Shown here piece by piece: positions 10,831-63,341 of a stretch of DNA of 64,000 bases. The stretch is from Stutzerimonas stutzeri (GTDB lineage: Bacteria; Pseudomonadota; Gammaproteobacteria; Pseudomonadales; Pseudomonadaceae). Under the pieces are notes generated by a model. The model saw only the letters and a list, made by a program, of their open reading frames with translations, was not told the DNA's origin and did not search any database. The position numbers were made by a program, and so were the translations under genes. Numbering within the stretch: position 1 is the first letter of the stretch; each line of letters begins with the position of its first letter. The stretch is from assembly GCF_000935215.1 (NCBI RefSeq), contig NZ_JXXD01000231.1:1-64000 (forward strand), in the 5' to 3' direction.

Positions 10831-10833
10831 GTC

Positions 10834-11196: not shown

Positions 11197-11330
11197 CAGG
11201 TGGCGTCTCTCACTTCAAGGGATCAACAGAACAGAGGGAAACGCCCTCACCGCGACCTCTGACCCGGGAAAGACCATAAAGATCAACGCGTCAGCCGAGC
11301 GGCGTTATTCAGCAGAGCGGCACAAACAAA

Positions 11331-11356
11331 AATGCCCGCATCCTTCGATGCGGGCA
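11331..11356 (-). terminator. grxD terminator
   Basis: TGCCCGCATC and GATGCGGGCA pair perfectly around CTTC, and the minus strand continues with TTTTTGTTTG. It lies 30 bases beyond the grxD stop. Confidence 0.9.
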
Positions 11357-11386
11357 TCAGGCAACGCCTACGCGGTCAGCCTGGGC

Positions 11387-11713: not shown

Positions 11714-11986
11714 GGAGTACCTCGGCTAGACACGGTTGCCGCGCATTGTAACGGAAAACGCGCGGGAAAGCCGAGCGTAGGACTCGGCTATGTTGTCGCG
11801 CAAAGGCCGCCAATACTGCGATTCAGCCGGCCTAAGGCCAGTGGGTCGAGGATTTGCGCCTGTGCTCGCTTTCTGGATAAGATCGCGCCTTTCCCGTTTC
11901 GTCGCTCCCCGTGCGACCCCCAGTCGTCGGTCCCCTTTTTCTGTCGAAAAGCACTGGATCGCGCTGCGGCAATAAAGGTAGTTGAT

Positions 11987-14480: not shown

Positions 14481-14499
14481 TGCCCTACTCCGCCCTGTC

Positions 14500-15870
14500 T
14501 CATACCACCTCGATCGCTGCCATCAACCCGGTTTCCATGTGGTCGATGACATGACAGTGAAACATCCAGACACCCGGATTATCGGCGACCAGCGCGATAC
14601 GGGCCGTCTCATTCTTGCCCAGCAGGTAGGTATCGGTGAACCACGGATCGATCTTGCGGCGATTGGACGAGATCACCTTGAAGGTCATACCGTGCAGATG
14701 AATCGGATGCTGGTACTGACTGAGATTGCGCAGCTCGAAGATGTAATCGCCATCCTTTTTCAGCGTAGCAATCGGGCGATCGGCACAGGTCTTGTCGTTG
14801 ATGTCCCAAGCCTCGCCGTTGATCTGCCAGAAGGTATAGGCGCCACCCTGCGCGGCGTCTGTCGACAAGGTACCGGCCCACTCGAAGTTGAAGCGCAGCG
14901 TTTCCGCACGCTGCAGATCCGGCTCCGCCACGGGATTGGCCGGCAACGCCGGCGGCCAGTCGCCGGCGACTTCGTCATGCGCCACCGAGCGCAGCGTCGC
15001 CAGCCGTAGCGGACCATTGCGCAAGGACAGCTCCGTGCCAGCGTCCGGCACCTTCAGCGCCAGGTCGATACGCATGCCCGGACCGAGCCAGTACTCCTTG
15101 CCCAGCGGCATCGGAGCGACCGGATGTCCATCGAGCGCATAGATGCGCGCCTCGCTATCTGGCAGGTTCAGCCGATAGGTCAGGGTGTTGTCGAGATTCA
15201 GCAGCCGCAGCCGCACGACCTGCCCGGCCGGCAGATCAAGCGTGGGCGCATGTGTGCCATTCACCGTCGACAGCACGCCCGGCGTGCCGCCACGGGCCGC
15301 CTCGCGCGGCACGCTGAAATCGGTGAACGCCCCCTGCTTGTCGACATGCCAGCTTTTCAGGTTGAGCGTACGCTCGTGCCTGAAACCGCTTGGTTCGCGC
15401 TCCTCGACAATCAGCGGACCGACCAGCCCGCGACCCAGCTGCGCGGCACTGCTGGTGTGCGGGTGATACCAGAAGCTGCCGGCATCGTGCAGCTGGAAGC
15501 GATAGTCGAAGAACTCACCGGGCAACACCGGCAACTGCGATACGTAGGGCACGCCATCCATTTCCAGCGGCAGACGAATGCCATGCCAATGGATGGTGGT
15601 GGGCTCGGGCAGATTGTTGATGAAGCGCACCCGCAGCCAGTCGCCCTGACGGCCACGCAGCTCCAGGCCAGGCGCTTGCCCGCCATAGGCCCAGGCAGGC
15701 GTGACGTGACCAGGCACCAGCTCCACGTCCAGCGGGGCGGCAATCAATTCGTAGTCATGAGTGGTGATGTCGGCCGGGCGACCGAGCCAGTAGCGCGCGC
15801 CACTGCCGGCGAGACCGACGACACCAAGACCGGCCAGGCCGGTGAGAATCTGTCTACGGGTAAAGGACAT
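14500..15870 (-). CDS. Tat-exported multicopper oxidase (CueO/laccase-like)
   Basis: Encodes 456 residues from MSFTRRQILTGLAGLG, a twin-arginine signal peptide; an ATG 36 bases upstream would put an improbable extension before it. All four copper motifs are present: HWHGIRLP, WYHPHTSS, HPIHLHGMTF and HCHVIDHMETGLM, giving a type 1 site plus a trinuclear cluster. It oxidises Cu(I) or phenolic substrates with reduction of O2 to water in the periplasm. No Met-rich copper-binding insert like that of E. coli CueO is seen, so whether copper tolerance is its role is uncertain. Confidence 0.9.
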   Translation of the reverse strand: MSFTRRQILTGLAGLGVVGLAGSGARYWLGRPADITTHDYELIAAPLDVELVPGHVTPAWAYGGQAPGLELRGRQGDWLRVRFINNLPEPTTIHWHGIRLPLEMDGVPYVSQLPVLPGEFFDYRFQLHDAGSFWYHPHTSSAAQLGRGLVGPLIVEEREPSGFRHERTLNLKSWHVDKQGAFTDFSVPREAARGGTPGVLSTVNGTHAPTLDLPAGQVVRLRLLNLDNTLTYRLNLPDSEARIYALDGHPVAPMPLGKEYWLGPGMRIDLALKVPDAGTELSLRNGPLRLATLRSVAHDEVAGDWPPALPANPVAEPDLQRAETLRFNFEWAGTLSTDAAQGGAYTFWQINGEAWDINDKTCADRPIATLKKDGDYIFELRNLSQYQHPIHLHGMTFKVISSNRRKIDPWFTDTYLLGKNETARIALVADNPGVWMFHCHVIDHMETGLMAAIEVV

Positions 15871-43447: not shown

Positions 43448-44101
43448 ATGACCCCAGAACTAGCGCCCACCACGCGTCCATCTGTGAAAGCAGGCCGGAC
43501 GCCCCGCAAGCCACAGCAGGACCGTGGACACGAGCGTGTCGCCGCCATTCTGGATGCCTGCGCGAAGGTGTTGCAGCGCGATGGCGAAGCGGGCCTGACG
43601 ATGCATCGTCTCGCCAAGGAGTCGGGCACCTCCATTGGCTCGCTCTATCACTTCTTCCCCGACAAGCACAGCGTCCTCGCCGCCCTCAATCAGCGTCACA
43701 CCGACGCGCTGTGTACCATCACCAAGCGACTGGAGCAGATCGACGATCACGTCTGGAAGCGCCTTTCTACAGCGCAGATGGTGGAACGGCTCATCGTTCC
43801 CTTTCTTGAATACATTGCTCGTCACCGGGATATCCAGTTGCTGCTCAGCCCGACCCTAGGCGATCGGCAGCTTCATTCGCCAGCGCTTCGCGCCGCAGTG
43901 CGTTCCATCTACGAAAAGGTTCTCCACATGAGGTTGCCCGACGCAAGTGCCGAAGATTTGCGCGCCTATAGTGCGGTTCTGTTATCCATACCATCCGGGA
44001 TGTTCCATTCGGCTCCTGAGACGAACGAAAGCCTGGAGCGGATCTGGCTACAGGAGATTCCGCGCGCCCTGATTGGCTATCTCAATGCGCTTGGGGACTG
44101 A
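43448..44101 (+). CDS. TetR/AcrR family transcriptional regulator
   Basis: Encodes 217 residues. Helix-turn-helix VAAILDACAKVLQRDGEAGL, TMHRLAKESGTSIGSLYHFFPDKHSVLAALNQRH matches TetR; a basic proline-rich lead of about 25 residues precedes it. Divergent from the EmrB-like operon with a shared operator candidate, so it is the probable local repressor. Its 3' end overlaps the convergent HTH regulator gene by about 25 bases. Confidence 0.88.
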   Translation: MTPELAPTTRPSVKAGRTPRKPQQDRGHERVAAILDACAKVLQRDGEAGLTMHRLAKESGTSIGSLYHFFPDKHSVLAALNQRHTDALCTITKRLEQIDDHVWKRLSTAQMVERLIVPFLEYIARHRDIQLLLSPTLGDRQLHSPALRAAVRSIYEKVLHMRLPDASAEDLRAYSAVLLSIPSGMFHSAPETNESLERIWLQEIPRALIGYLNALGD

Positions 44102-45069
44102 AGCGAGAGCACCATCTCACCAGCAGAGGAAGACGCCGCAGATAGCGCGGACAGGTCTCCTGGCACCTCGGGCGCTCGCGGGCCACGGTCATTGGTGAGC
44201 GGCTCATTCCCCATGCTGGTGACGCCGACCTCGTCGGTCAGCCATTGTTCAAATAGCCGGCTTGCGGCTTGCCCTTCCCTCGCCGCGTAATAAACCAGAC
44301 GTAGATCGCGGTCGACATCGATCGTAAGAGACGTATGGTCGAACACTACCAGCCCAATGTCCGGGATTCGCAAGTGCCGTACACCCTGGCAAGGACCGTG
44401 GATGTCGTGCTGACGCCACCAGGTCCTGAAATCGGTGTCGATCTTCTCCAAATCCTTAACCAATGCTCCCATGTCGGGGTCTTGGGCTGCCCTGACGAAA
44501 TCACGGCGAAAACTCGACAGGATTTGCAAGGCCTGATCCTCCCAAGGGTCGAGCAATGCGCGCATCGAAGGTGCGGTGAACAACAGCCAAAGGAAGTTGC
44601 GCCGCTCTGTCGGAACGCTCGAGAAAGCGAAGACCTTATCTGCGGCCGCGTTCCAAGCCAGCACATCCCAGCGAAGATTGAGGACGTACGCCGGACGCAT
44701 TGGGAGGTCGGCCATCAACCTATGTACGAGCGGCGGCACGACACACCAAGTCTTGCCCGGCTCCGGTGGAAGACGTTGGTGAGCGAGGAGGAACAAGTGG
44801 CGCCGCTCAGTCGCATCCAGCTTTAAGGTTTTGGACAGCCTTTCAAGGAATGATGCCGAAACGCCAATTTCGCGGCCCTGCTCCAACCAGGTGTACCAGG
44901 ACAAACCGACCCCAGCCAGCGCCGCTACCTCCTCACGTCGCAGGCCCGGTGTGCGGCGACGCTCACCCGCCGGCAGGCCAACTTCCTGGGGAGAAATACG
45001 TTCACGGCGGCTTCGCAGAAAGTTGGCCAGCTCCGCCCGGTTTCGCTCAAGGCTGCGAGGCGCGCTCAT
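44077..45069 (-). CDS. XRE-family regulator with MmyB-like ligand domain
   Basis: Encodes 330 residues. N-terminal helix-turn-helix (ELANFLRSRRERISP; RRTPGLRREEVAALAGVGLSWYTWLEQGRE, the typical MmyB/HTH_31 signature) is followed by the MmyB-like domain with VLNLRWDVLAWNAAADKVF, shown in related Streptomyces-type regulators to bind fatty-acid-like ligands. The C-terminal 40 residues are extra and low-complexity. Divergent from the chimeric ALAS/asparagine synthetase gene, over an AT-richer promoter gap. Confidence 0.88.
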   Translation of the reverse strand: MSAPRSLERNRAELANFLRSRRERISPQEVGLPAGERRRTPGLRREEVAALAGVGLSWYTWLEQGREIGVSASFLERLSKTLKLDATERRHLFLLAHQRLPPEPGKTWCVVPPLVHRLMADLPMRPAYVLNLRWDVLAWNAAADKVFAFSSVPTERRNFLWLLFTAPSMRALLDPWEDQALQILSSFRRDFVRAAQDPDMGALVKDLEKIDTDFRTWWRQHDIHGPCQGVRHLRIPDIGLVVFDHTSLTIDVDRDLRLVYYAAREGQAASRLFEQWLTDEVGVTSMGNEPLTNDRGPRAPEVPGDLSALSAASSSAGEMVLSLQSPSALR

Positions 45070-45209
45070 CCGGTTACTCTCCAGTAATAGTATAAGAGGT
45101 CAAATTGTAACCCCATCGAAGCCGGATTAAGAATAACTCCTCCCCGCCAATGCCCCTTTCCAGAAAGCTGGCCGGCATCGAGCGGCTTGATCGTTCAGGA
45201 GATATTCGG

Positions 45210-46484
45210 ATGTACCAATCATTGCTTCGTGAGCAACTGGAGTTATTGAAGTCCTCCAACCAGTACCGCACCTTTACCGCTCTCAGTTACATCTGCGGCC
45301 AGTATCCGTTCGCCAAGCTGAACGGCGAGCAGCCGGATCCGGTCGTTGTGTGGTGCAGCAACGACTACCTAGGAGTGTCGCAGCACCCGACCGTACGCGA
45401 GCAGATGCACCTAGCATTGGAAACGTACGGCGCAGGCTCAGGCGGTTCGCGTAACATCGGTGGCTCCTACGAGCTTTATGAGCGACTCGAGGCGAGCCTT
45501 GCCGACTGGCACGATAAAGAAGCGGCACTGGTTTTCCCGACCGGCTTTGGCTCGAACGACGCCACCGTCCAATGCCTGCTGAGGCAAATCCCCGATTGTG
45601 TAGTGATCAGCGATGCGCTGAATCACGCATCGATTGTCAACGGCATCCGAGCAACACCGAATGAACGGCAGGTGTTTCGCCATAATGACGTGGAACACCT
45701 GGCCCAGATACTGTCTCGCTATCCAATTGGTCAACCGAAGGTGGTTGTGTTCGAGTCGATCTACTCGATGGACGGCGACATCGCACCGATTGCCGACATC
45801 GTGGAAGTTGCCAAGCGCTTCCCCGCGGCGATCCAGGCCCAGACCTTTCCCTGGCTGGTGTCTGTGACTGGCAAATACTTCGACGGCAAGACCCTCTTCG
45901 ACCCGGCGCTGCTACATCAGCTAGACCTGCCCGGGTTCGTAGAGGACAGCTACAGTCAGGCGCTCAGCGAAGCCCCAGTACTGCCGTCGGAGGAGCAGAC
46001 GGATCGGCGCATGCGCCAGATGAGCTACGTCAACCTGACCCGCTTCGTCCAGACATTGCTTGATCGCAAGGACCGGATGAGCATGGCCGTCGGTCTTGAG
46101 GTCAGGGTGCCCTTCTGTGACCACAGGCTTGTCGAGTACGCATTCAACATTCCTTGGGAAATGAAGACCTTCGACGGGCGCGAAAAGAGCATCTTGCGTG
46201 CGGCGACTCGTGACCTGTTACCCAAATCGATCAGCGATCGGGTCAAGAGCCCCTACCCCTCGACGCAGGATCCTGCTTACGAGCAGGCGCTTCGCACCTC
46301 ACTCACCCAGATCATGGCCGACAAGGACGCACCTGTGCGAGCCCTTCTCGATGCATCGCAGGTCAAGCCCACCCTGAAGAGACCCGTTGGCGACACCTCG
46401 CCCATGTACGACCGAATGGGCATGGAGCTGGCGGTTGGCCTGAACACCTGGCTGACCGAACAGGATGTCAGCCTCGATCTTTAA
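45210..46484 (+). pseudogene. In-frame chimera: ALAS-like N-terminus joined to asparagine synthetase C-terminus
   Basis: Encodes 424 residues from MYQSLLREQLELL (AGGAGA upstream). Residues 1 to about 203 match 5-aminolevulinate synthase and related alpha-oxoamine synthases: WCSNDYLGVSQHP, GAGSGGSRNIGG, SDALNHASIVNGIR, FESIYSMDGDIAPI. It then switches near 45820, just before the expected DEVHAVG and long before the PLP lysine (G-K-A). From there it resembles the C-terminal end of glutamine-hydrolysing asparagine synthetase (DRKDRMSMAVGLEVRVPFCD, REKSILRAATRDLLP), without the amidotransferase or the S-G-G-x-D-S ATP site. Neither half can be active; a deletion between two genes explains it. Confidence 0.85.
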
Positions 46485-46541
46485 CTCAGCGCGACGCGGT
46501 CCAGCGACCGCGTCCAGCCTCCTTCCTGGAGCGGCGATACT

Positions 46542-47750
46542 ATGAATACCCCGTATCCCAACAAGCAACTTCCCATCTACCTGATCGCACTCGGTGCATT
46601 TGCGCTGGGCATGGCCTCCTATGTCACAGCAGGCCTGATTCCCCTAATTGAGGCCTCCTTTTCCGTTTCGGTCGCTGTGGCTGCGCAGCTGGTGACCGCC
46701 TTTACCCTCGCCTATGGCCTTGGCTCGCCGATATTCGTTGCGCTGACCCCACCCGATCATCAACGCACCGGTTTGCTGTTCGCCCTTGGATTGTTCGTTC
46801 TGGCAAACGCGGCCAGCGCCCTCGCAGCAGGCTTTGCCGAACTGGTGATCTGGCGGGCCGTGGCCGGAATAGGCGCCGGCGTCTACCTCGCCATGGGCAT
46901 CGGCGCCTCAGCAGCGCTCTCATCGCCCGAGCGGCGCGGAAAGTCGATCGCCATCATCATGGGAGGCATGGCGAGCGGCGTTGTGCTGGGAGTTCCAGTG
47001 GGTTTGATAACTGCAGACAGCTTCGGCTGGCAAGCTGCACTTTGGCTCGTCACCTTGCTGGGGTTGTTAGCTTTTGCGGGCCTGGCATTGATGTTGCCGA
47101 GGCTGCAAGCGGCGCCCACCAGCTCCCTGGGACAAAAGCTCAGGATCCTTGCCGATGGGCACGTGATGACCATACTTCTTATTTCCCTACTAGCTGCCGT
47201 TGCCAGTCTGGGCATGTATACCTTTATCGCTCCACTGCTCGCCGACCCGGAACTCGGTGCAGTCCGCTCGGTAACGCCTTATCTCTGGATCTGGGGCATC
47301 GGCGGCGTACTCGGCAGCTTTCTGGTGGGCCCGGTTGTCGATCGAGTCAGGGGGCCCGTGCTGGTCTTCGCCATTATGGTCATCCTCTCGGCCTCCTTGT
47401 TTCTCTTACCGGTTGCGGCCACGCTCGGCACGTGGCTGGTCATGCTGCCGATCATGGCATGGGGCGCCGTAGGCTGGGCCCTGCAGGTACCGCAGAACAA
47501 CGAACTGATACAGGCCAGGCAGGCACACGGCGATGGCAACCTTGCCATCGCTCTCAACGAATCGGCGCTATACCTGGGCAGCGCCATAGGTGCGGCCGCC
47601 GGAGGCTTCGTCCTGCTGCTACAGATGCCCACCTGGACGCTGGCCGCCTGTGCCGGCTTGATCGCCTCACTCGGCGCACTGCTTCAGGTTCTCAACCTTC
47701 GTCGTCAGCGAGCCTGGCCGCGCACAGTCCAACCTGAAACCAACCATTGA
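46542..47750 (+). CDS. MFS transporter (DHA1-type)
   Basis: Encodes 402 residues with twelve predicted membrane segments, beginning LIALGAFALGMASYVTAGLI and containing the loop FALGLFVLANAASALAAGF and GAWVG-like positions of the DHA1 drug exporter group. Short loops, no extra domain. It lies 57 bases after the chimeric gene and 18 before the LysR gene on the same strand, and may once have exported a product of the broken ALAS/asparagine synthetase pathway; that is inference. Confidence 0.88.
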   Translation: MNTPYPNKQLPIYLIALGAFALGMASYVTAGLIPLIEASFSVSVAVAAQLVTAFTLAYGLGSPIFVALTPPDHQRTGLLFALGLFVLANAASALAAGFAELVIWRAVAGIGAGVYLAMGIGASAALSSPERRGKSIAIIMGGMASGVVLGVPVGLITADSFGWQAALWLVTLLGLLAFAGLALMLPRLQAAPTSSLGQKLRILADGHVMTILLISLLAAVASLGMYTFIAPLLADPELGAVRSVTPYLWIWGIGGVLGSFLVGPVVDRVRGPVLVFAIMVILSASLFLLPVAATLGTWLVMLPIMAWGAVGWALQVPQNNELIQARQAHGDGNLAIALNESALYLGSAIGAAAGGFVLLLQMPTWTLAACAGLIASLGALLQVLNLRRQRAWPRTVQPETNH

Positions 47751-47768: not shown

Positions 47769-48548
47769 TTGGAGCTTCGTCATCTTCGCTGTTTCGTGGC
47801 CGTCGCCGAGGAGCTGCATTTCGCACGGGCTGCCGAACGTTTGCATATGGAGCAATCGCCCTTGTCGCGGACCATCAAGGACTTGGAGTACCGCTTGGGT
47901 GTGCAGCTGTTCGAACGCACAACGCGCCGAACGCGTCTCACCTGGGCCGGCACGGTCCTGTTGCAGGAAGCCCGGCGTGTCATTGCGGTCGTAGAACAGG
48001 CCAAAGCGAGCGTGAAAGGCGCCGCTTCGGGTTACCGAGGTCAGCTACGTATTGCCCTGTCCGACGGCGTCCCGCAATCGCGGCTGGCGTCGCTGCTCGC
48101 GCTGTGCCGCGAGGAAGACCCCGACATCGAAATCTTCCTGCGTGAAGTGCCGTCTGCGATGCAGGCCAGAGGCCTGGCGGACGATTTGTTCGATGTCGGT
48201 CTGTCGCAAACCACATACCAGGCTGACGGGCTGCTGGCCGTGCCCGTATGGCATGACCCGCTTGTCGTTGCCCTGCCAGCACGCCACCAATTGCTCGCCC
48301 ACCGCGAGATTCCGCTGGAGGAACTCGCCGGGCACCCATTGGTGCTCTGTGAGCCTCAAGTCTGCGAAGGATTCTGGCAGCAGCTACAGCTCGTACTACG
48401 GCCTATTGCGCCCAGACTGACCATCGCGGAGCGTGTCCCAACCCTCGATCTGCGTGCTCACTTACTGAGCTATGCAGCTCAGGAACTGCTCGACGAGATG
48501 GTCGTGCTGTATCGCCGCGCACTTGGGGCGAGTGCGGCGCACGGCTGA
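47769..48548 (+). CDS. LysR-family regulator with aberrant C-terminus
   Basis: Encodes 259 residues from a TTG preceded by GGAGGTG. The winged helix (ELRHLRCFVAVAEELHFARA, HMEQSPLSRTIKDLEYRL, LFERTTRRTRLTWAG) and first half of the effector domain (LRIALSDGV, IEIFLREV) are normal. After PTLDL (about residue 228) the usual strand and glycine-rich segment (V-A-A-G-Y-G-x-G) and final 50 or so residues are replaced by 30 unrelated residues (RAHLLSYAAQELLDEMVVLY to the end). It is shorter than the roughly 290-300 residues of the family, so DNA binding may persist but effector response is likely lost. Confidence 0.8.
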   Translation: MELRHLRCFVAVAEELHFARAAERLHMEQSPLSRTIKDLEYRLGVQLFERTTRRTRLTWAGTVLLQEARRVIAVVEQAKASVKGAASGYRGQLRIALSDGVPQSRLASLLALCREEDPDIEIFLREVPSAMQARGLADDLFDVGLSQTTYQADGLLAVPVWHDPLVVALPARHQLLAHREIPLEELAGHPLVLCEPQVCEGFWQQLQLVLRPIAPRLTIAERVPTLDLRAHLLSYAAQELLDEMVVLYRRALGASAAHG

Positions 48549-50493: not shown

Positions 50494-51297
50494 ATGCCTA
50501 CAGCGCAGACCATGACCCCGCAGCAAGCCTGCGAAAACATCCTGATCGGCGGAAAGCGCTACAACACCGAGCGCAGCCTTCTGCGTAGCGAGAACGCCAT
50601 TATCGATCGACTGCTCACTCGCGGCCTCGAACTGAAATCAGCCTACGGCGAGCTGTACGAGAAGCTGCACTCGCGTCCGCCGGCCCTCAGGGTATTGCTG
50701 GGCCTTTTGCTGAGTACCGCAGCCTTTTGGAGCCCGGAAAAGATCGCCGAGTCCCGCGACCGGCGAGACGAACTCATCGAGACCAACCGTCAAATTGGGC
50801 GAAAGGCCGCGGAGTTAGCGCAGCTGCTGGAGCAGCGTACCTGGCTGCATGAAACCTCTGGTTTCAGCAGCCGCACCCACTATCACGTTTGCGATGTGAT
50901 CGAGGCGGCGGCCGGGAACCACTCACTGTTCAATGCCTATGTGAAAGACCGCCTGGACGCCCTCTGCGGCCAGTTCGACCTGAAATACTGGCCCTCGCCG
51001 GATCAGCTTGTCCGAGCCCTCGCAGCGGACGCAAATAGCGCCACTCTGGAGGCGACCGATCCGCTGACCCGCGCCGCGTCTACAGGAACGCGGCCTTCGC
51101 GAACCGACTTCTCCAAGGCATTGTTTGCTGCCATTGAGGAAAACAGCACACAGAGCGGCGGACCTCTGCCCGAAGATTTTCGGCTCAGCGATGGCGCGCT
51201 CGCCTCGTTGGCGAATTGCGCGTTGGACTTGGGGCCGGATGAGCTTGCGGACAGCACCTACGTAAAACGACTTCGCCAACGCCTCCGCGACAAGTGA
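50494..51297 (+). CDS. Uncharacterised 267-residue accessory protein
   Basis: AAGGGA precedes the ATG. Predominantly alpha-helical: an N-terminal region (ACENILIGGKRYNTERSLLR), one hydrophobic stretch around 64-76 (RVLLGLLLSTAAFW) that could be a membrane or buried helix, then a Glu/Arg-rich coiled coil (about 80-115, REIAESRDRRDELIETNRQI-like), and a mixed C-terminal half with two clusters of Ala. No family recognised. Divergent from the DUF932 gene, in an island of ICE-like genes. Confidence 0.75.
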   Translation: MPTAQTMTPQQACENILIGGKRYNTERSLLRSENAIIDRLLTRGLELKSAYGELYEKLHSRPPALRVLLGLLLSTAAFWSPEKIAESRDRRDELIETNRQIGRKAAELAQLLEQRTWLHETSGFSSRTHYHVCDVIEAAAGNHSLFNAYVKDRLDALCGQFDLKYWPSPDQLVRALAADANSATLEATDPLTRAASTGTRPSRTDFSKALFAAIEENSTQSGGPLPEDFRLSDGALASLANCALDLGPDELADSTYVKRLRQRLRDK

Positions 51298-53999: not shown

Positions 54000-54896
54000 T
54001 CAGCCCCTTCTTAGTTCTATGGGTTGAAGTACGGTCGAGGGCACTGCCAGGCAATACTCCTGCTCAACACCTCTACCCTTGCATTTGAGCAGGGCGAACA
54101 GATCCCGCAGGGGTGGGTCCTGCTGCTCTAGCCAAGGAAGCAGCGGCGGGACCAGGGCAAAGCTCTCCCGCCAGATGGTTTCGTCTCCATACTGATCGAC
54201 TATTTCGGGACTCAGAAGTGGTACCAGCATACCCGCACAGGGCAAGGCTTCGGCTATGCGCCGGGCATTGGCTAGGCCAACTGGATCAAGGTCAGGCAGC
54301 AGCCAGATCTTCGCGCCCTCCCAAGACACCAACAGCGCCAGCAGCCGATCAGATAGCCAACCTTCGTAATGAGCCACCAGCGCGCCGCTCAATACTGCCG
54401 GCAGCCGTGTCGGCAGATGCAGCAGGGTGTCACGGTTTTCCACTAGCACCACATGGCCGGTTGGCTTGGGGGTCGCGTCGGGTCTGCGCTCGTCGTGCCA
54501 TAGCAACTTCAGAAACGCCGGTGAAGGCGATTCCCACTGCAGGATATTACCCTGTGCATCCTCCCAGCTGACGGCCTCGCCAGCGCTACAACTGATCATG
54601 AGCGAGGGCAGTCGCCCCCCGCGCTTGCTCGAGCCGCCGTGGATAATGTTCAAGCCGCGCACCGAACAGCTTTCCAAATCCTTGGGCGGCTGCAACCGGG
54701 CAATACGCTGCCCTAGAGAATCGGCATGCTGCACAATCACATGCGGCGATATTCGCCCGGGCACACGGCCCACCGTGACGATGCCGGAGACTCTGAGCTG
54801 ATCGAGCACAGCCTCAAGTGCCTTCGGCCAACTGCGCACAGGGACAGGCCCTTTGCGCAACCGCTGTAGTATTTCCAGCTCTCTCGGCCGACTCAT
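54000..54896 (-). CDS. jetD: Wadjet protein JetD (Toprim nuclease)
   Basis: Encodes 298 residues; the start overlaps the jetC stop (ATGA). A C-terminal Toprim domain is visible: catalytic Glu153 in HVVLVENRDTLLHLP and the D-x-D pair Asp202/Asp204 in WLLPDLDPVGLANARRIAEA. An N-terminal winged-helix-like DNA-binding part (about 1-60) precedes it. JetD is the nuclease that cleaves small circular DNA trapped by the JetABC SMC complex. It is shorter than the roughly 380-400 residues of JetD proteins with a full DUF3322 front, suggesting a type II-like subtype. Confidence 0.9.
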   Translation of the reverse strand: MSRPRELEILQRLRKGPVPVRSWPKALEAVLDQLRVSGIVTVGRVPGRISPHVIVQHADSLGQRIARLQPPKDLESCSVRGLNIIHGGSSKRGGRLPSLMISCSAGEAVSWEDAQGNILQWESPSPAFLKLLWHDERRPDATPKPTGHVVLVENRDTLLHLPTRLPAVLSGALVAHYEGWLSDRLLALLVSWEGAKIWLLPDLDPVGLANARRIAEALPCAGMLVPLLSPEIVDQYGDETIWRESFALVPPLLPWLEQQDPPLRDLFALLKCKGRGVEQEYCLAVPSTVLQPIELRRG

Positions 54897-57817
54897 GACT
54901 GAGCTACCGTGTCAGCCTTCGCGGTCGCCACCTGCAAGCTATCACTGAATTGCTCGACGTCTACCTCGGACTTCTCGTCTCTCTCGCTTCGCTGCGGAGC
55001 CTGCACCGGCTTGACGTCTTCGTGATGATCGAAGTGCTGCCAGTCCGCCTGGGTCACATAGATACGATTGTCGGCGTTGATACACTCACTGATATTGATG
55101 CAATAGCGCACCGTGGTAGTCGGGTCGACAGATGCAAACACAGGGGTGAAACCAAGGTTCTCGCTGAATGCCAAGATTGTGCGCTGATTGTTCGGATCAA
55201 CCGAAGCAATCTCATCCAAGTAGAACGGCAGGAACGGTTCGACCCGAGCACCACGGTCGGTCAGGTGGCGAATCAGAGAGAAATACAACAACGGTTTGAG
55301 CGTCATGGTCGAGCCATTAGAGGCCAGCTCGTCGAGTGTGTTGCAGACAACGACCTTGCCGTTGACCTCTTCCACGGTGAATCCGATGTCGAATAGGTCG
55401 CCGAGCTCGAGGGTACCGTCACGACCATCTTCAACCAGACGAGACAGCCGATCCATAGCGCGCACCAGCCTCGCCTGGGATGCGCCCCCGCCTTGCTGGC
55501 CGAACAGGTCGGTCTCGTTTTCGTCAGCCTGGGCGATGTGTGAGGACAGGGTATTGATGGCTTCAAGTATCGGTTCGTTCCTCTTCAGATCTAACCTGAA
55601 GCCACGAAGGTTCGAGACTTTTCGCGCATTGATCCGGCGGTTGAATAGCGAAATCTCGTGTTCCAGCGTCACGTAGTTCTCGGAAAGATCGCGCAGAGCC
55701 CCCGAGAGCTGGGCAATGCCCTCCTGATGGTAGCGCTTGAGCATCTCACGCATCTGCGGCAGCGTTTCCAAACGCTCGCGTGCATGCTGCACTAGATCGC
55801 TCAGATTCGCGTGTCGGGCAAGATCAGGTAGGTCGCCAACGATCGAGTGCTGGTAGCTCTTCATGGTCAGGGCTATGCGGTCGAGCGCGTTGCTGATCCA
55901 CTCCAGCCGATTCAGTGCGTCACCGAAGTTGTACTCGGTGAGATCGCGTTCGAAGTCCTCGTTCGGCCCTTCAGCGAAAATGAAGGAACTGTTCTGGATC
56001 TGGCGGTGTTGCTGCACGACCTTGAGCTGGCGGGCCTGCTCGAGGGCATCGTTGAGCTTCTGCTCGATAACACTGATGGTCCGGGTGGCCCCCTCGATCC
56101 GCTCCTGGTGCCCTTGCAGCCACTCGTCGATCTGGGCGAGACACATCATTACACCCTCGAGCACCTGGCGATCATCGGTCTCGGTGGCTTCCAAGGTCGC
56201 GAGCTCGGTCAGTTCCTGCAGGTAGCCCTGCTGGTTGCTCATCTGCTTTGCCAGCGACTCCAATTCGGTACGCTTGAGTGTCTGGTTTTGGGCAACCTCG
56301 AGTTGCCCCTGAAGCTTAGCCAAGTCCTCTTGGTACATGGCGATTGACTGCTGTAGCTGTGCCGGATCATCGCTATGAAAATCCATTGGAAGCAGATCGG
56401 TCAGGTCTAACTCGAAACCCTGTAAATTGAGTAGCCCTTCCTTCGACATGAGCTGGGTGCGCACCCAACTGTTAAAACTGCCCGGGTGGATTTCGGTCAG
56501 CGCTGCGGCCTCAAGGCTAAACATGTCGCCGCGAAGCAGCCGCGACAGCTCGGCCTTTTCCGCATCGACAAAGCCTTGGGTATCCAACAGTCCGTCGCCA
56601 TTGCGGACCTGCTCCAGTCGCTTGTTGAGCTTGCGAATTTCATTTTCAGTGTGGCGCAGTCTGCTACTGACGGTTGCCACATCGTAGATGTCAGCCTGGC
56701 GCAACTGATCGCTGAGCGTGGCGTGCTGGGCTGCCAGTGTGCGAATCGATTTCTCGACCGTCTCGCGGCAGGTCATCGCATTGCGCTCACATAACTCGTC
56801 GAGGCGGGTCAGCCGGCCGGCCAAGGTGATGCGCTGCTCGACCGCTCGATCGCGTTCTTGCATGCGGCTATTAAGCTGTTCGTTGAGCTTGGCGCGCTTT
56901 TCGATTTCTTCCTTGTGAAGCGCGTTGAGCTCCTCGATGCATAGCGGTGCCCGCTCCACCGCCAGGGTCAGGTTTACCCTCAGCTCGCGCGCCAACCAGC
57001 CGCCTTCTTGCGAAAGTTCGGTGTATTCGTCGTATTCCTTGCCGAGGGCGAGGATGTCCTCACGACGGTACGCAAGTCGCTCGACTTCCCGCTCGGCAAG
57101 ACGAAAGCGCTGGAACGCGCGCTCGCGGACCTCGAGGAAATTCAAATTGGCATTGCTCAGCTTTTCACTGAAGACGTTGAGGATGAGCTCCTTGATCTCG
57201 CGGCTCTTGAGTAGCTGCTGAGTGAGCAGGTTGCGATAGATTTGGCGGAACACCTGGTAGCGCCTTTCGTTGGCGTTCGCCAGAGGCACTATGGTCACAT
57301 CCCAGTCACCGCCTTTGACCCGCCCGCTCTCTCCGTAGAGCATTTGGCGCATCTGTTCGCGGGTCAGGTTGCGCACCTCGATGCCCCGTTCGTACCAGTG
57401 CCGGAACAGCTCCTTATAGGGGCGTATGCGGTTGATCGGGTCAACGAAATCACCCATGTCCAGCTCACCTTTAGCCACGAACAGTTCATATTCGTTGCCA
57501 GCGGTAGGACCCTTGCCGTGAGCACCAACGATGAACACGCCGTCGGGGGTCAGCACCTCCATCAGTAAGTAGCTGTGGTCGCTGGGAAAGAAGAACGCGC
57601 GGCTGGTGTTGGCCTGGTGGGCGCCGAAGTGCATGTGTGCAAGGTGGGTGAAGAAGATAAACTGCATGCTTTGCAGCGCCTGGGTCTTACCCAAGTTGTT
57701 GTGTCCGCAGATGCTCAGCGGCCCGTCCATGGGAAAGACCGACATGATGTGGTTGCCGGAGTTGACCATGGCGTAATGGCGCACGCCCCAGCGGGTCTTA
57801 AGTGCTTTGCTGCGCAT
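54893..57817 (-). CDS. jetC: Wadjet protein JetC (MukB-like SMC ATPase)
   Basis: Encodes 974 residues. Walker A GHNNLGKTQ (Gly38, Lys44), preceded by the family start GVRHYAMVNSGNHIMSVFPM; long coiled coils (about 270-420 and 480-740, rich in Glu, Gln, Arg and Leu); Walker B FLPFYLDEIASVDPNNQ with Asp868-Glu869; and a C-terminal acidic tail. It is the motor that extrudes DNA loops and senses plasmid topology. Starts three bases past the jetB stop and overlaps jetD. Confidence 0.95.
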   Translation of the reverse strand: MRSKALKTRWGVRHYAMVNSGNHIMSVFPMDGPLSICGHNNLGKTQALQSMQFIFFTHLAHMHFGAHQANTSRAFFFPSDHSYLLMEVLTPDGVFIVGAHGKGPTAGNEYELFVAKGELDMGDFVDPINRIRPYKELFRHWYERGIEVRNLTREQMRQMLYGESGRVKGGDWDVTIVPLANANERRYQVFRQIYRNLLTQQLLKSREIKELILNVFSEKLSNANLNFLEVRERAFQRFRLAEREVERLAYRREDILALGKEYDEYTELSQEGGWLARELRVNLTLAVERAPLCIEELNALHKEEIEKRAKLNEQLNSRMQERDRAVEQRITLAGRLTRLDELCERNAMTCRETVEKSIRTLAAQHATLSDQLRQADIYDVATVSSRLRHTENEIRKLNKRLEQVRNGDGLLDTQGFVDAEKAELSRLLRGDMFSLEAAALTEIHPGSFNSWVRTQLMSKEGLLNLQGFELDLTDLLPMDFHSDDPAQLQQSIAMYQEDLAKLQGQLEVAQNQTLKRTELESLAKQMSNQQGYLQELTELATLEATETDDRQVLEGVMMCLAQIDEWLQGHQERIEGATRTISVIEQKLNDALEQARQLKVVQQHRQIQNSSFIFAEGPNEDFERDLTEYNFGDALNRLEWISNALDRIALTMKSYQHSIVGDLPDLARHANLSDLVQHARERLETLPQMREMLKRYHQEGIAQLSGALRDLSENYVTLEHEISLFNRRINARKVSNLRGFRLDLKRNEPILEAINTLSSHIAQADENETDLFGQQGGGASQARLVRAMDRLSRLVEDGRDGTLELGDLFDIGFTVEEVNGKVVVCNTLDELASNGSTMTLKPLLYFSLIRHLTDRGARVEPFLPFYLDEIASVDPNNQRTILAFSENLGFTPVFASVDPTTTVRYCINISECINADNRIYVTQADWQHFDHHEDVKPVQAPQRSERDEKSEVDVEQFSDSLQVATAKADTVAQS

Positions 57818-57819
57818 CG

Positions 57820-58569
57820 TTACTCCGGGGTCTCGTCGTCTTCGTCGGGCTGGGTATTCAGAAAGTCGTCTGCCAGCTCGTTCACCGAGCGGTCACTGTA
57901 GGAATAGTCTTCCCCGCGCTCTTGGGCCTCAAGCTGTTGCTGATGCTGTTCAGCCAGGTTCCGGCAGATGTCGAGGTAGAAGTAGGCCGGCAGGCCCAAG
58001 GTGTAGGCGACCTTGTCTTGGGAGAGACGGCGTTCATTCATCACCCCGACGTCGACCAGCCGGCGAATGCCGTTGTCGATGAATGACTCCACACTGCCCA
58101 GTCCGAGACGGGTGAGCCGGTCGTGGCACTGGCTGAACATCGCTCCCAGGTCGTCGATGAGGATGGGTTCTTCATGGGTGATCATCGATTCAATCGGCAA
58201 TCCCTTGTCGCACAGGTGCTCGATCAGGGAGAAGATCGCCGCTGCTGCCATGCGCTCGCGCTGGGGCAGTTGGGCCTGGCTCATCTCGCGCGGCTGCAGA
58301 TAGTAAAACCCTGTGGTGTGATGTCGCAGCTCATGCCCCATCATGCGCAACAACACCTCGTAGGTGTCCTGAAAGCGCGACAGCTCGCGATATTCCTTAA
58401 TTCGGTCGGTGCTGCTGATAAAGCGCCCCGCCTCGAGCGCTTCGACAATCCGGGAGAACAGGCGGAGCTCTCGCTCGAGGCGCTGGGCATAGTGTCTGGC
58501 ATCGCGCACTCGATCTTCGAGCGACAGCTCGAGATCCTCGGCAGACTCGTCCTGAGGCAGATCATCCAT
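57820..58569 (-). CDS. jetB: Wadjet protein JetB (kite subunit, DUF4194)
   Basis: Encodes 249 residues from MDDLPQDESAEDLEL; an in-frame ATG 81 bases upstream lies inside jetA and is less likely. Acidic N-terminus, then winged-helix-rich DUF4194 sequence (RERMAAAAIFSLIEHLCDKG, SVESFIDNGIRRLVDVGVM, YTLGLPAYFYLDICRNL) and an acidic tail (QPDEDDETPE). It is the kite protein equivalent of MukE in the JetABC complex. Overlaps jetA by 8 bases. Confidence 0.92.
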   Translation of the reverse strand: MDDLPQDESAEDLELSLEDRVRDARHYAQRLERELRLFSRIVEALEAGRFISSTDRIKEYRELSRFQDTYEVLLRMMGHELRHHTTGFYYLQPREMSQAQLPQRERMAAAAIFSLIEHLCDKGLPIESMITHEEPILIDDLGAMFSQCHDRLTRLGLGSVESFIDNGIRRLVDVGVMNERRLSQDKVAYTLGLPAYFYLDICRNLAEQHQQQLEAQERGEDYSYSDRSVNELADDFLNTQPDEDDETPE

Positions 58570-59887
58570 CGGAGGGTTCTCGGATAGGCAAGGGTTCGTA
58601 ATGGCTGTAGAAGGCGATCGGGGCCAATCGCCGCGGGGCCGGTTCGGCATTGTATGAGCGCCGGTTCATGCGGATTTCGAGTTCCTCGAATCGGTAGTGC
58701 TGCATGTCGTCGTGGCGTTGGATGAAAGGCGCAGTCTTATCTTCCATCGTCAAGCGGGTCAGCACGCGCAACACCGAGTCAGGCCGGGCCTTGGGGTACT
58801 GAGCCATCAGCTTCGCGACGACATCCTCGACAGGCTGCTGACTCTTCAGCCACACGAGCATCTGCGGGGACATCTCCCGCCGCTCGCGGGCTTCGAGCGC
58901 TGCGGCCGAGGGGACGCGCACGAGGATCGCGTCGGGGGCAATCGACTGTAGCTCCTTGAGCTGCGCCCACCAGGCCTGCAGCGAATCCTGGTCAGGCTTA
59001 TGGACGCGTCGCTTGCGCGGCGGCAGGGCCAGAGTGTCGCTGCGCGCCAATTGGCTGCTGTGGTGGCCAAGGTCCTGAAGGCCCAGCGCCGCTCCCTGGG
59101 CAATGCGCGCATTAATTTGCGCCTGGCGCACCAGCGGCGCCAGATGGCTCGCCATGTTCTCGATCGAATGATTGAGGCTCTCGCGAAAATCGAGCATGCG
59201 AAACAGGATGCTGTCGATTTCGTAGCGGGCATCATCCATGCTCAGCAGGTGAAGCGCCGGGTCCTGCTGCCACTCCTGCAGAGTGCGCTTGATGCGCATG
59301 AGCGAAAGATCGAACGGCCCACCCATGCTCTTCATCTGCAGTGCCGGCGTTACGTACTCGTCCCAGGCCTTGATCACCTGTTCATAACGCTCGGCCAGCG
59401 GCTGGCTCTGATCCGAGCGCTTGGCCTTGTCCACCAGCGCGTAGATAGCACGCGTATTAGCTTCGACCATGCGACGCAACGTCTGAAAGCGCGACTGCAT
59501 CTCCTGGGACTTGGCGAAAAAACCCGTGCGCCGACCGCTGAGCATGGCCGCAGCCAGCTCTTCAAGGTGCCCCTCGAGCCTGTTGGCGTTAGCGCTGATC
59601 TCCTCGATCAAGCCCAGACTCTGCTCATCAAGCAAAAACTGCACAAAGGGCACGATTTGCAGGTTCAGCGAATAGCCCTGCCCACCGCGGGAGAACTCCG
59701 AAAGGATGCCGATATCGACCATGCGCTTGACTGCAACCTGCTCAGGCTGGTCGGTACCGATAGTGAACGGGCGTACGATATGCAGCAGTTCGCGCTCAGT
59801 CAGGGTGCGGGTTTCGTACCGAGACCAGATGGTACTTATGATGTCCCAGCAGTCACCAAGAGCGCGAATGAAAGACCGTGGTTTCAT
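58562..59887 (-). CDS. jetA: Wadjet protein JetA (kleisin, MukF-like)
   Basis: Encodes 441 residues, first gene of the four-gene Wadjet unit. Winged-helix N-terminus (MKPRSFIRALGDCWDIISTIW, ELLHIVRPFTIGTDQPEQVA), helical centre with coiled coil (about 130-260) and a C-terminal winged helix of the kleisin type (QMLVWLKSQQPVEDVVAKL). Kleisin bridging the heads of JetC. Order A-B-C-D, overlaps and lengths fit the complete anti-plasmid system. It begins 85 bases after the MBL protein gene, on the same strand. Confidence 0.93.
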   Translation of the reverse strand: MKPRSFIRALGDCWDIISTIWSRYETRTLTERELLHIVRPFTIGTDQPEQVAVKRMVDIGILSEFSRGGQGYSLNLQIVPFVQFLLDEQSLGLIEEISANANRLEGHLEELAAAMLSGRRTGFFAKSQEMQSRFQTLRRMVEANTRAIYALVDKAKRSDQSQPLAERYEQVIKAWDEYVTPALQMKSMGGPFDLSLMRIKRTLQEWQQDPALHLLSMDDARYEIDSILFRMLDFRESLNHSIENMASHLAPLVRQAQINARIAQGAALGLQDLGHHSSQLARSDTLALPPRKRRVHKPDQDSLQAWWAQLKELQSIAPDAILVRVPSAAALEARERREMSPQMLVWLKSQQPVEDVVAKLMAQYPKARPDSVLRVLTRLTMEDKTAPFIQRHDDMQHYRFEELEIRMNRRSYNAEPAPRRLAPIAFYSHYEPLPIREPSDG

Positions 59888-59972: not shown

Positions 59973-61043
59973 TCAACTTTCTTGCTCTTCGGGATACGCT
60001 GCTTGGGGAATTGATACCCATCCATCACGGGTAATGCCTGCCCCGATGCGTATGTTCTGGCTTTCGGTTGCTGCCCAATGCCCACCCCGGTGCAGTACAG
60101 CGCGAATCACCGACTTCCGTGGATGATCCTCATCCGCCTTGGCAGAGCTGCATATGGCATTCCAGGTATGTTTGTCTGGCATGCTGTCCAACCTTGGGCC
60201 AACCAACTGATCCAGAATCTCAGTCGAAACATTGTGTCGCCCGCCATGATGCGGCACCTGGAAATACCGAATGCCGGGCAACGTAAGTCCTGCAAAAGGT
60301 GCGTAGTCAATCACCTCTTGCAGCGCCTCACGCCCGGCGTCGCCAGTAAGCATGACGCGATGACCATTCAGGACAGCTGACTGCACTACACTCATTTCGT
60401 TTTCACGACTAGTTGGCGCAGACGGAAAATACTCGTCGCCCCACAAGGATTTGATGTAGGAAGTCGCAGCCTTAACTGCCCGAAAAATGCTGCTCAGAGC
60501 ACTATCCATGGCACCTTCTTCAACAGCTTCAGGTGTCTTCGTGGAATCCACGATTAAGTCCATGTAGCGACCTAGCGTCGGTGCCATCACCGTGAAGGGG
60601 CCGATGCTCTGCCCCTGAAGCGGAGCATGAATCGGGATTCCCTTCTCAAGCGCAATGTCCTCAAGAGCTGCAGTGGCATCGTAGACAGAACGTAATTTCC
60701 GCCTCAGCGCTTCCACTGATTCATAGGTCTCGAATCGATCTATCAACTGCTCTGCATATATCCACGGCCTATTGATCCAGAGATTCTTGACCGTACATTG
60801 CTCCAAGACTTTTCGAAGCCCATTGGCGTGATCACGATCCGGATGCGTGAGGATCACGTGATCGATAACCGTTGTGCCATAGTAGGTTTTCAGGTGCTCA
60901 ACGATCTGATCACCGGTATCCAGATACCCACCGTCAACCACGTGTATGCCTTCGGTGCCATTTACCGAGTAGCGCAGCGTGATTGCATCCCCGCTCTTCG
61001 CTGTTTCGACGCCAAGAAAATCGATCTCAAAGTAGTCAGCCAT
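59973..61043 (-). CDS. ComEC-like metallo-beta-lactamase-fold hydrolase
   Basis: Encodes 356 residues from MADYFEIDFLGVETAKSGDA; AGAGGG lies seven bases upstream, so the ATG 45 bases earlier is unlikely. Metal motifs: THPDRDHANGL (His67, Asp69, Asp71, His72), VMLTGDAG and FQVPHHGGRHN. This is the T/S-H-x-D-x-D-H form of ComEC-type MBLs rather than HxHxDH, and there are no membrane segments, so it is a soluble hydrolase, probably of a nucleic acid or phosphoester. 45 bases after the E2-E1-JAB gene on the same strand; Wadjet follows 85 bases downstream. Confidence 0.88.
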   Translation of the reverse strand: MADYFEIDFLGVETAKSGDAITLRYSVNGTEGIHVVDGGYLDTGDQIVEHLKTYYGTTVIDHVILTHPDRDHANGLRKVLEQCTVKNLWINRPWIYAEQLIDRFETYESVEALRRKLRSVYDATAALEDIALEKGIPIHAPLQGQSIGPFTVMAPTLGRYMDLIVDSTKTPEAVEEGAMDSALSSIFRAVKAATSYIKSLWGDEYFPSAPTSRENEMSVVQSAVLNGHRVMLTGDAGREALQEVIDYAPFAGLTLPGIRYFQVPHHGGRHNVSTEILDQLVGPRLDSMPDKHTWNAICSSAKADEDHPRKSVIRAVLHRGGHWAATESQNIRIGAGITRDGWVSIPQAAYPEEQES

Positions 61044-61088
61044 ACATCCCTCTTGCCTAATACCAACGAAGTGCCGGTGGTTCTCCAC

Positions 61089-63341
61089 CTACCAGCGATC
61101 CACCGCACATGTGAGCCCTGTCGGAGTCCATACCAACGACACAGCAGGAAGACCACCAGCATCCTCAGCGATGCCGCGCAACGTATGTCGGTCTATACCC
61201 GAATGAGCGCCGCCTTTCGGGTGGCTGTGCCAAGTGCCGATAAAGGCGAGATATCCCAAAGAGGCCGAATTTGCAGTACGCAAATCTTGAACAAGCCCAT
61301 CGGTGCCCAAAACGAAGCGTGCGGCCGCTCGAACGCTGTCTGGCGGTGCGTCAACAAGCCCCGCAATGATGATGGTTCGATTTTCAAACGAGATGCGGCC
61401 GACTATGGCACCGCCTGTTTCCAACGCACCCCAGCGCAGCGCATCAGCATGGATCGCTTGCGCGACCGGGTGCAGAATCCGAATGCTCCAACCACCATCG
61501 TCCGCCACATCGAGCACAGTGGTAGGACCAAGGCTGGTGCGAGTCCATGCTATGCCGAGGCCTTCAGCATCCGAGATCCCAGCGCAAAGAGTCGCTTCCT
61601 TCGGAAGCCCGTCAATGAGCCAGCGTTCCAGTTGCAGCCCAGCCAGTGAAGCAGACCGCGAAACGACGGCATCAGACATTGGCATGGTCAGTGAGCGGCA
61701 GTTGTCGCCCACAAAAATACGCGTCGGCTCAGAAGTATCACCGGCAATCGATGCACGCAGTTCCGGCACAAATCGGCAGCACTCGAACAAGAATGCCGTG
61801 AGGTCATCAACCCGACCGGCGCGGCGAAGTCCTTCGAGCAAAACTGCAACACAGCGGCCCCGACCGTACATCGCGATCCGTACGAGCCGCGCAGGTGATT
61901 GATCCAGCGCTGTCGACTGTGTTTCTGCGGCTAGCACCTTAAGTGAAGCTGTTGCGTCCACGATAAGCGCTGCATCCTGCGGAACAGTTGTCGAGAACTG
62001 TACTGGATCGACTAGGAGGCTCACTGCGTCGGCGTCGAACGCGCGCGATTGAAGATGAGACAGCTCCTCAAAGGCCGTCTTCATCAGAGCAGCCTTTCGA
62101 GGTGGGACCAGCACTGATGCCCGCTCAATGAGGGCATGCCGTGCTGCGTTGTGAGGCGACATGGATTCGTTGTCGACGAAAGCCATTGAACCGAAACCGG
62201 CTCGCCCCAGATGCATCGCGATTTTCGACCCTACACTTCCGCAGCCGAGCATGACCAGCGGCTGAGATATGGTCGCCGCTGGAATGCCGGACGTCCTTGC
62301 CAACAGTTCGGGGGACAATGCATGCGCATGAAAGGCTGGGTGAACCGTGGCGCTTCGCTCTAGGAGCGATTGAGCGTTGAGCTCATAGCGCACCACATAG
62401 GGCAGTACCTCAATACTTCGCCCTGGTGAGCCCACAAGCGATGCAGGCCTTTGCACAGTCAGAATCACAACCGCGTACAAACCATGCACCCAGCCGCGCG
62501 AGTCCTGTTGCACATCCAGGATCGAGTGTCCGTAAAAACCATCCAGACTTCTGGCCAAAGCGTCGCGATCAATGCCGAGCTCCGCAGCTCGATCAAGCAA
62601 CGTCGCGAGATCGAAAACCGTCTCCGGTTGATAACGGTCGATCACATGAAGGCCGTCGGTTATTGGAGCGCGTGCGATGAAGGCCGCGGTATGGCCGTTT
62701 CCCCATTTACCCAGCTTGTCGTTGTGAGCGTCCTGGCAGAACACAGGATCGACTTGGGCGGTCAGTTCGGTATTGATGATGGCGTATAGGCCATCATCAA
62801 TCGTCACATAGCTAACGGGTACTATCAAAATCGAGCCGTCAGCGGGAGCAGCGGACGCGACCTTCTCGGCGCTGAATGCAATGGTCGAAGGACAACTGTC
62901 TCGACGCGTCGGCTCCCACCCCTGCTCAAGATCCAGCAACGCCCCAGCTGCAGCCTTGTGCAGCCAATCGATTAATTGATCGATAATCGCGTCCAGACCA
63001 AACCGATGCAGTAGCTCGTCCAATGCCCCCTCGAACAGGCAAGGTGAGACCAACTCGCCTTCGCGATGGGGATTGATGTGCGGCAAGTTGAGCGGAAAGT
63101 CCGTACGCAAGAGAGGCTTGGGCGCGGATAGAGGCCAGTCATTGTCGAAGACCAGAATGCATGTCTCGACCGAACGTACGCCGGTTTCGGAAACGCCATA
63201 GCGCCGAGACCGGCTCGGTAGCTCAACAGAAACATCGACTTCGATCTGCGTTAATTCACAGCTTACCCTTGGCTCCCCAACGCGGACCAAGCCTCGATGC
63301 CGCTGAAGCTGATGCAGTGCATCCGCAATCCTGTCCATCAC
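61089..63341 (-). CDS. E2-E1-JAB tri-domain ubiquitin-conjugation-like protein
   Basis: Encodes 750 residues. Three modules: an E2-like domain at about 25-140 (VSVELPSR, CILVFDNDWP, NLPHINPHREGELVSPCLFEG, catalytic Cys101 candidate); an E1/ThiF adenylation domain at about 345-600 (VMLGCGSVGSKIAMHLGRAG with nucleotide loop Gly366-Gly371, Asp390 at the strand end, PPRKAALM); and a JAB/JAMM peptidase at about 625-750 (Glu641 in ETGGAIVG, His705/His707/Ser714/Asp717 in TWHSHPKGGAHSGID). The region 150-340 has no domain I recognise. A single-chain E1-E2-deubiquitinase unit. Start overlaps the preceding MBL gene by 4 bases. Candidate E1 cysteines are Cys521/522 and Cys586. Confidence 0.88.
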   Translation of the reverse strand: MMDRIADALHQLQRHRGLVRVGEPRVSCELTQIEVDVSVELPSRSRRYGVSETGVRSVETCILVFDNDWPLSAPKPLLRTDFPLNLPHINPHREGELVSPCLFEGALDELLHRFGLDAIIDQLIDWLHKAAAGALLDLEQGWEPTRRDSCPSTIAFSAEKVASAAPADGSILIVPVSYVTIDDGLYAIINTELTAQVDPVFCQDAHNDKLGKWGNGHTAAFIARAPITDGLHVIDRYQPETVFDLATLLDRAAELGIDRDALARSLDGFYGHSILDVQQDSRGWVHGLYAVVILTVQRPASLVGSPGRSIEVLPYVVRYELNAQSLLERSATVHPAFHAHALSPELLARTSGIPAATISQPLVMLGCGSVGSKIAMHLGRAGFGSMAFVDNESMSPHNAARHALIERASVLVPPRKAALMKTAFEELSHLQSRAFDADAVSLLVDPVQFSTTVPQDAALIVDATASLKVLAAETQSTALDQSPARLVRIAMYGRGRCVAVLLEGLRRAGRVDDLTAFLFECCRFVPELRASIAGDTSEPTRIFVGDNCRSLTMPMSDAVVSRSASLAGLQLERWLIDGLPKEATLCAGISDAEGLGIAWTRTSLGPTTVLDVADDGGWSIRILHPVAQAIHADALRWGALETGGAIVGRISFENRTIIIAGLVDAPPDSVRAAARFVLGTDGLVQDLRTANSASLGYLAFIGTWHSHPKGGAHSGIDRHTLRGIAEDAGGLPAVSLVWTPTGLTCAVDRW

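Follow-up and report, generated by a model that had tools for sequence, protein, structure and literature searches.

An in-frame ALAS-AsnB gene fusion of Stutzerimonas stutzeri as the probable relic of a deletion within a mobile element in decay, with intact relatives

Alaremycin (5-acetamido-4-oxo-5-hexenoic acid) arises by a short route in which a homolog of aminolevulinate synthase (ALAS) joins serine to succinyl coenzyme A (succinyl-CoA), followed by acetylation, dehydration, and export by an MFS transporter; primocarcin is its carboxamide. A Thr/Ser position in ALAS is a putative determinant of serine use, and our literature search retrieved no passage showing that this position governs it. 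The alaremycin genes that Okui et al. (2025) reportedly described from Streptomyces sp. A012304 code for an ALAS-like enzyme, an N-acetyltransferase, an oxidoreductase-type dehydratase, and an MFS exporter. That 2025 paper on alaremycin biosynthesis (Okui et al. 2025, doi 10.1021/acsbiomedchemau.5c00045) is cited in two articles, whose passages on alaremycin describe this compound as an antibiotic of Streptomyces, which acts by displacing ALA in porphobilinogen synthase (PMC12670364, PMC13402209). Searches of the literature met neither the name primocarcin nor a gene cluster for it, and neither those on the gene combination considered below nor one on alaremycin-like terms found a paper.

The locus analysed here lies in the first 64,000 nucleotides of contig NZ_JXXD01000231.1 of Stutzerimonas stutzeri, and this whole stretch is referred to as the window. 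The reported gene set of the Streptomyces sp. A012304 pathway is the same as that of an intact cassette without AsnB that we recovered from relatives, whereas the clusters of the window's parent type add an AsnB-type amidotransferase and an XRE regulator, and often a LysR regulator; the window itself retains a deleted remnant. Primocarcin is the product that would be predicted if a glutamine-dependent amidotransferase were added to alaremycin chemistry. The intact AsnB is similar over residues 1 to 607 to amidotransferases of the 7ylz/TsnB type, a likeness in which amide and hydroxamate formation are indistinguishable. With the heme-type ALAS (NCBIfam TIGR01821; PDB 2bwn), the intact relatives share the family and the positions of the Schiff-base lysine and of the PLP aspartate.

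The fusion gene is an open reading frame on the forward strand (45210..46484) coding for a 424-aa protein, or for 444 aa if begun at the first ATG (45150). The start at 45210 looks better than that at 45150, because a good Shine-Dalgarno sequence (TCAGGAGATATTCGGATG, TCAGGAG) stands ahead of it and because, outside the closest four, alignments of most relatives with the longer form begin only at about residue 13 to 26. Pfam analysis recovered Aminotran_1_2 (residues 64 to 223) and Asn_synthase (229 to 435) on the one frame, and the best PDB relatives are an ALAS (2bwn, residues 25 to 230) and a hydroxyamidotransferase (7ylz, residues 221 to 410). Pfam and alignment delimit the N-terminal half of an ALAS-like gene (45210..45821, forward), which runs to F224 of the intact 430-aa protein of the relative L029, and the C-terminal part of an AsnB-type amidotransferase (45822..46484, forward; 220 residues, from P398 to the last residue, 617, of the intact L029 protein). 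F224, which is residue 204 counted from 45210, passes directly into P398 with no internal stop. The fusion of an ALAS-like start with an AsnB end is thus real and in frame, as the first-pass annotation had read it from the letters: that annotation had noted the continuous frame and the good ribosome binding site, and its placement of the join at about residue 203, near 45820, was off by a single residue from the one that we find at 45821. In identity at the protein level, the ALAS half reaches 95 to 96% with three genomes of the genus (G049, G027, and G036) and the AsnB half 97% with G027 and G049. In the latter two, the halves match separate genes whose starts are about 4 kb apart, and at such identities the fusion is not a product of chance. 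Other matches to it in its own genome are weak (37% and 31%).

Four relatives (loci L029 to L032, of which L029 and L032 are from Stutzerimonas) are close enough for base-by-base comparison, and each has whole ALAS, GNAT, Gfo/Idh, AsnB, and MFS genes, with the LysR gene being cut in L031. In bins of 100 bp, the window matches them at 93 to 100% identity between 45037 and the junction, and likewise onward to about 48320. In L029, a divergent XRE gene is followed by the ALAS-like gene (8001-9293), a GNAT gene (ending at 9796), a Gfo/Idh/MocA gene (ending at 10863), and the genes for AsnB (10887-12740), the MFS exporter (12798-14006), and LysR (14025-14960). The window has this order minus L029 positions 8673-12077, that is, 3,405 bp or 1,135 codons, with a 1-bp overlap (a shared C) at the junction (45821, forward). 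We regard the event as a deletion rather than an insertion, since the genes that are broken in the window are whole in the relatives. The corresponding interval is 3,405 bp in L029 and L030, 3,413 bp in L032, and 3,404 bp in L031, so the ancestral deletion may have differed in size by a few bases; the join itself is in frame. A deletion in a former operon that joined an oxoamine synthase to an amidotransferase had been proposed in the first-pass annotation, and the undeleted ALAS/asnB/MFS/LysR cluster that it pointed to is present in close relatives. That proposal holds in that the window equals their cluster minus the missing block, but the full GNAT and Gfo/Idh/MocA genes formerly lay between the fused ends and went with it, and the locus has two other joins besides this one. 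Microhomology at the junction, also raised there, is real only to the extent of the single base: a 7-bp overlap suggested by the ends of BLAST alignments was rejected upon inspection of the bases. We likewise rejected a fall in identity from 98% to 90% left of the junction as an effect of the deletion, its source being the mosaic XRE gene.

The absence of both catalytic centres, the remaining element of that annotation, is borne out by residue-level comparison. The PLP-binding D231 and K265 (L029 ALAS numbering) lie beyond the last retained residue, 224. On the other side, AsnB is retained from residue 398 (numbering of the intact protein), which excludes Cys2, the glutaminase domain (GATase_7, 48 to 171), and the SGGLDS loop (265). 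Asp279 and Lys313 of an ALAS are named as catalytic in the titles of papers, and by our own assignment they correspond to D231 and K265 of L029. With the ALAS family model TIGR01821, the fusion scores 249.5 bits, under the cut-off of 338.55, as against 535.3 for the intact L029 protein, which is above it. On the basis of the missing residues, the hybrid protein is probably dead and, as it keeps neither catalytic centre, the pathway would be dead in this strain.

A 36-base pattern spanning the junction, allowing up to three mismatches, was found in just 1 of 398 genomes of the family, its own, in a set comprising mostly one genome per species, in which sister strains are scarcely covered. A search of 56 genomes of the genus with the fusion at an E value of 1e-30 gave matches in 13, this one included. 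In 11 of the 12 others, the halves are separate matches, G049 having two loci of this kind, and the first-pass annotation's alternative of an identical fusion conserved in many genomes is therefore not what is seen. Two genomes of the same species, G020 (99% complete) and G019 (73% complete), returned no match at that threshold. The twelfth, G036, has the ALAS half alone: its ALAS gene (locus L113) is cut at residue 351, and it represents a second, independent decay of the same cluster. An IS3-type transposase gene (Pfam rve; L113 16133-16885) adjoins the cut gene, and it is followed by a frame that starts like a tyrosine integrase found in locus L116 and then by a GuaA-like frame.

Comparison of the window with contig C16 of G027 revealed that order and orientation are kept across three jumps. 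On the left, the window from 37500 to about 44430 matches a TetR/MFS locus (L103), with an identity of 98 to 100% in 50-bp bins between 43400 and the switch region, and then changes over inside the gene of the XRE/MmyB-type regulator (44077..45069, reverse strand; Pfam HTH_31 and MLTR_LBD), which is divergent from the operon and, by alignment, a mosaic of paralogs. The alignment places the crossover tract, from the XRE gene of the TetR/MFS side to that of the cluster type, at 44425..44430, and the two parent XRE genes are about 138 kb apart in G027. At least two paralogs contribute to this mosaic, and a tract at about 44750 to 45000 fits neither parent well (68 to 90%) and perhaps comes from a third source. 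On the right, the LysR gene (47769..48548, forward) is truncated, with homology to an intact 311-aa gene stopping at 48452, and is joined at a 12-bp repeat (ACCCTCGATCTG, 48441..48452) to a DUF932 block whose counterpart in G027 is found only after another 24.5 kb or so. A TrbI conjugation gene (Pfam) stands just past LysR in L029, and its G027 counterpart falls within the 24.5 kb missing here. When most of that stretch was searched in the strain's own genome, pieces of 73 to 79% similarity turned up on other contigs (among the 40 of 109 and the 40 of 99 candidates that were scored), along with two short closer matches, of 31 bases at 94% and 36 bases at 89%. The L116 tyrosine integrase (3804-5057; Phage_integrase and Arm-DNA-bind_3) adjoins a GuaA-like frame some 19 kb past the LysR join, on the same contig but outside the window. 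Some 495 bp of the window (50571-51065) are not in G027 and sit between two blocks that are contiguous there. Given the two further joins in the locus of the deletion, the whole element is collapsing. With three distinct joins in a span of about 4 kb, the way in which such a pathway is gained and lost can be put to a direct test.

To survey the intact cassette, we assembled 79 loci, namely, 74 from a scan of genome contigs with the fusion as the query (from the best 80 of 550 places) and 5 plasmid stretches (from the top 8 of 176 plasmid records); AsnB-bearing clusters are over-represented among the 74, since the query contains the AsnB half. ALAS, GNAT, and Gfo/Idh genes occur together in 49 of the 79 loci, with AsnB in 42 and without it in 7, absence of AsnB, GNAT, or hemB here meaning absence from the stretch examined rather than from the genome. 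Seven loci lacked an ALAS match and were excluded from the residue count; among the remaining 72, those without the GNAT-Gfo/Idh pair number 23. All 49 pair-bearing loci have an MFS match at 1e-8, 38 have an XRE match, and 37 a LysR match. The span from ALAS to Gfo/Idh is at most 3.5 kb, with the exception of L120, where the start of the circular record falls between the genes and the annotation lists no MFS despite the match at 1e-8. The form with AsnB is found in Proteobacteria and actinomycetes, and an AsnB-bearing contig labelled as cyanobacterial (L057) was taken as mislabelled because its ALAS groups among those of Pseudomonas. The form lacking AsnB occurs in Bacillota, some Streptomyces, and plasmids, its seven loci being those of Bacillus, Aeribacillus, two Streptomyces, and plasmids of Rahnella, Parageobacillus, and Staphylococcus capitis.

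Several features of these loci bear on whether the parent ALAS is just another heme-type enzyme (hemA) making ALA. The intact L029 protein scores above the NCBIfam cut-off for heme-type ALAS, as given above, and its plasmid-borne counterparts are annotated as hemA. Against this, position 100 is Ser in all 48 covered cluster ALASs (one being uncovered), as opposed to Thr in 20 of the 23 others (the exceptions being L079, L119, and L122), and most cluster ALASs share a single branch with good support, which comprises 46 rows, two of them from loci without the GNAT-Gfo/Idh pair, in a tree of 68 rows (4 short rows of the 72 were excluded). The cluster ALASs moreover have GNAT and Gfo/Idh genes beside them at 49 loci, near none of which a hemB occurs within the stretches examined, as against 3 of the 23 non-cluster ALASs. 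We accordingly hold the heme-type reading to be improbable. The actinobacterial cluster ALASs L068-L070 sit with alphaproteobacterial ALASs, yet carry Ser, so that two recruitments are likely under the midpoint root used, which falls short of proof. Two small plasmids, from Macrococcoides canis (L119) and Staphylococcus capitis (L120), carry a Ser100-type ALAS annotated as hemA, and that of S. capitis additionally holds GNAT, Gfo/Idh, and LysR genes; these hosts, we presume, would not be expected to use a plasmid ALAS for heme.

By analogy with alaremycin, and in view of Ser100, of the recurrent grouping of ALAS, GNAT, Gfo/Idh, and MFS genes, and of the lack of hemB near the cluster loci, the intact pathway might combine serine with succinyl-CoA, N-acetylate and dehydrate the product, and export an ALA analogue of the alaremycin type, a prediction to which we give even odds. 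For the AsnB-bearing form, a primocarcin-like carboxamide is the most likely product as a prediction. Searches against PDB with the intact AsnB favour the hydroxyamidotransferase 7ylz (568 bits, residues 1 to 607) over asparagine synthetase B (1ct9, 151 bits), and a hydroxamate is therefore an alternative to the amide. More tentatively, and at somewhat less than even odds, the AsnB operon could be the cluster for primocarcin, or for a close alaremycin amide or hydroxamate, carried on mobile elements of Pseudomonas, Stutzerimonas, Halomonadaceae, and actinomycetes, with an ALAS that was recruited on two or more occasions, each showing the same Thr-to-Ser switch, and with strains like the present one having lost the synthesis and kept the exporter. 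Taken as a gene, the fusion is nothing more than a commonplace relic of a deletion, and the intact cassette of its relatives is the more interesting discovery: the value of the fusion is as a pointer to a compact plasmid or island cassette that is labelled hemA and whose products are probably inhibitors of heme synthesis, and the form with AsnB would explain where the amide of such an inhibitor comes from.

Taken together, these observations favour, at a probability of about 0.88, a fusion gene left over from a deletion within a mobile element in decay. The operon once present on that element would have specified an alpha-oxoamine synthase like ALAS, a GNAT acetyltransferase, a Gfo/Idh/MocA-type oxidoreductase, an amidotransferase of the AsnB type, an MFS exporter, and LysR, with a divergent XRE/MmyB-type regulator upstream. 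A deletion of about 3,405 bp, essentially free of homology (1 bp), would then have brought codon 398 of AsnB directly behind codon 224 of ALAS with the frame kept, XRE x XRE recombination and the joining of LysR to the DUF932 block being the two other events. Among the pathway genes, the full-length exporter gene alone could still work. The sequences directly show the fusion and its ends, its intact parents, and that no other genome in the searches contains it. The in-frame joint and the kept ribosome binding site might instead mark a selected new gene for a chimeric binding or regulatory protein. The open frame, the good Shine-Dalgarno sequence, and the L029-like spacing to the MFS gene would suit such a gene, as would the absence of stops since the deletion, which is equally compatible with recency. 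We nevertheless reject this chimera as the main reading and consider it very unlikely, since none of the 397 other family genomes searched has the junction and the joint cuts both enzymes midway, removing both catalytic centres; further, one in three deletions is in frame by chance, and neighbouring genes in the same locus are decaying. A similarly slight chance attaches to an assembly or population artefact, in which the strain would hold an intact operon and the contig would be wrongly joined. The genome is a draft of 397 contigs that was judged without reads, but the 1-bp overlap offers no repeat to cause misassembly, the genome is rated 100% complete, and the missing 3.4 kb was not found elsewhere in it, the 40 of 59 candidates that were scored yielding just a stretch of 210 bases at 66% (C342).

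We counted nonsynonymous (N) and synonymous (S) changes private to the window relative to four or five relatives, with LysR followed to 48365 only and two changes in one codon counted as two. The counts are 6 N to 8 S for the ALAS half, 2 to 0 for the AsnB half, 1 to 2 for MFS, and 3 to 0 for LysR. For the whole fusion, 8 N to 8 S compares with 4 N to 8 S in the relatives (P = 0.46; P = 0.087 with LysR added). The AsnB half and LysR together give 5 N to 0 S as against 9 N to 20 S in the relatives (P = 0.007), a grouping picked after the counts were seen and in which two of the five changes share one codon, so that relaxed selection on the remnant is no more than suggested.

The MFS exporter (46542..47750, forward) has 402 aa, the same length as in L029 and the same spacing from the end of the fusion or AsnB; its best NCBIfam match is Cmx/CmrA (170 bits, below the cut-off of 400). 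Selection may have kept its expression while costly biosynthesis was lost, with immunity to the product of neighbours being retained. This possibility, which adds to the deletion explanation rather than competing with it, would account for an in-frame deletion as one that avoids polarity on the MFS gene. It is consistent with the full length of MFS and its count of 1 N to 2 S given above, with the MFS match in all 49 cluster loci, and with the single hemB in each of the four genomes examined, in view of which export is the likelier means of self-protection; a second hemB as a self-resistance marker was accordingly rejected. The substitution counts are, however, far too small to bear on it (MFS versus relatives, P = 1.0), a scan of 44950-46560 gave no promoter-like site (weak evidence in this genus), and LysR is truncated. 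We regard leftover immunity as a possible role for the surviving exporter, though one less likely than not.

Elsewhere in the window, a four-gene set on the reverse strand (54000-59887) includes an MksE-type condensin subunit (Pfam MksE) adjoining a 974-aa protein, and it resembles an MksBEF/Wadjet-type system, although PADLOC gave no match for this set. Also on the reverse strand (59973-63341) are candidate defence genes, coding for a metallo-beta-lactamase-type protein (PADLOC PDC-M48B, 510 bits) and an adjoining 749-aa protein whose domains are Prok-E2_A, ThiF, and Prok-JAB.
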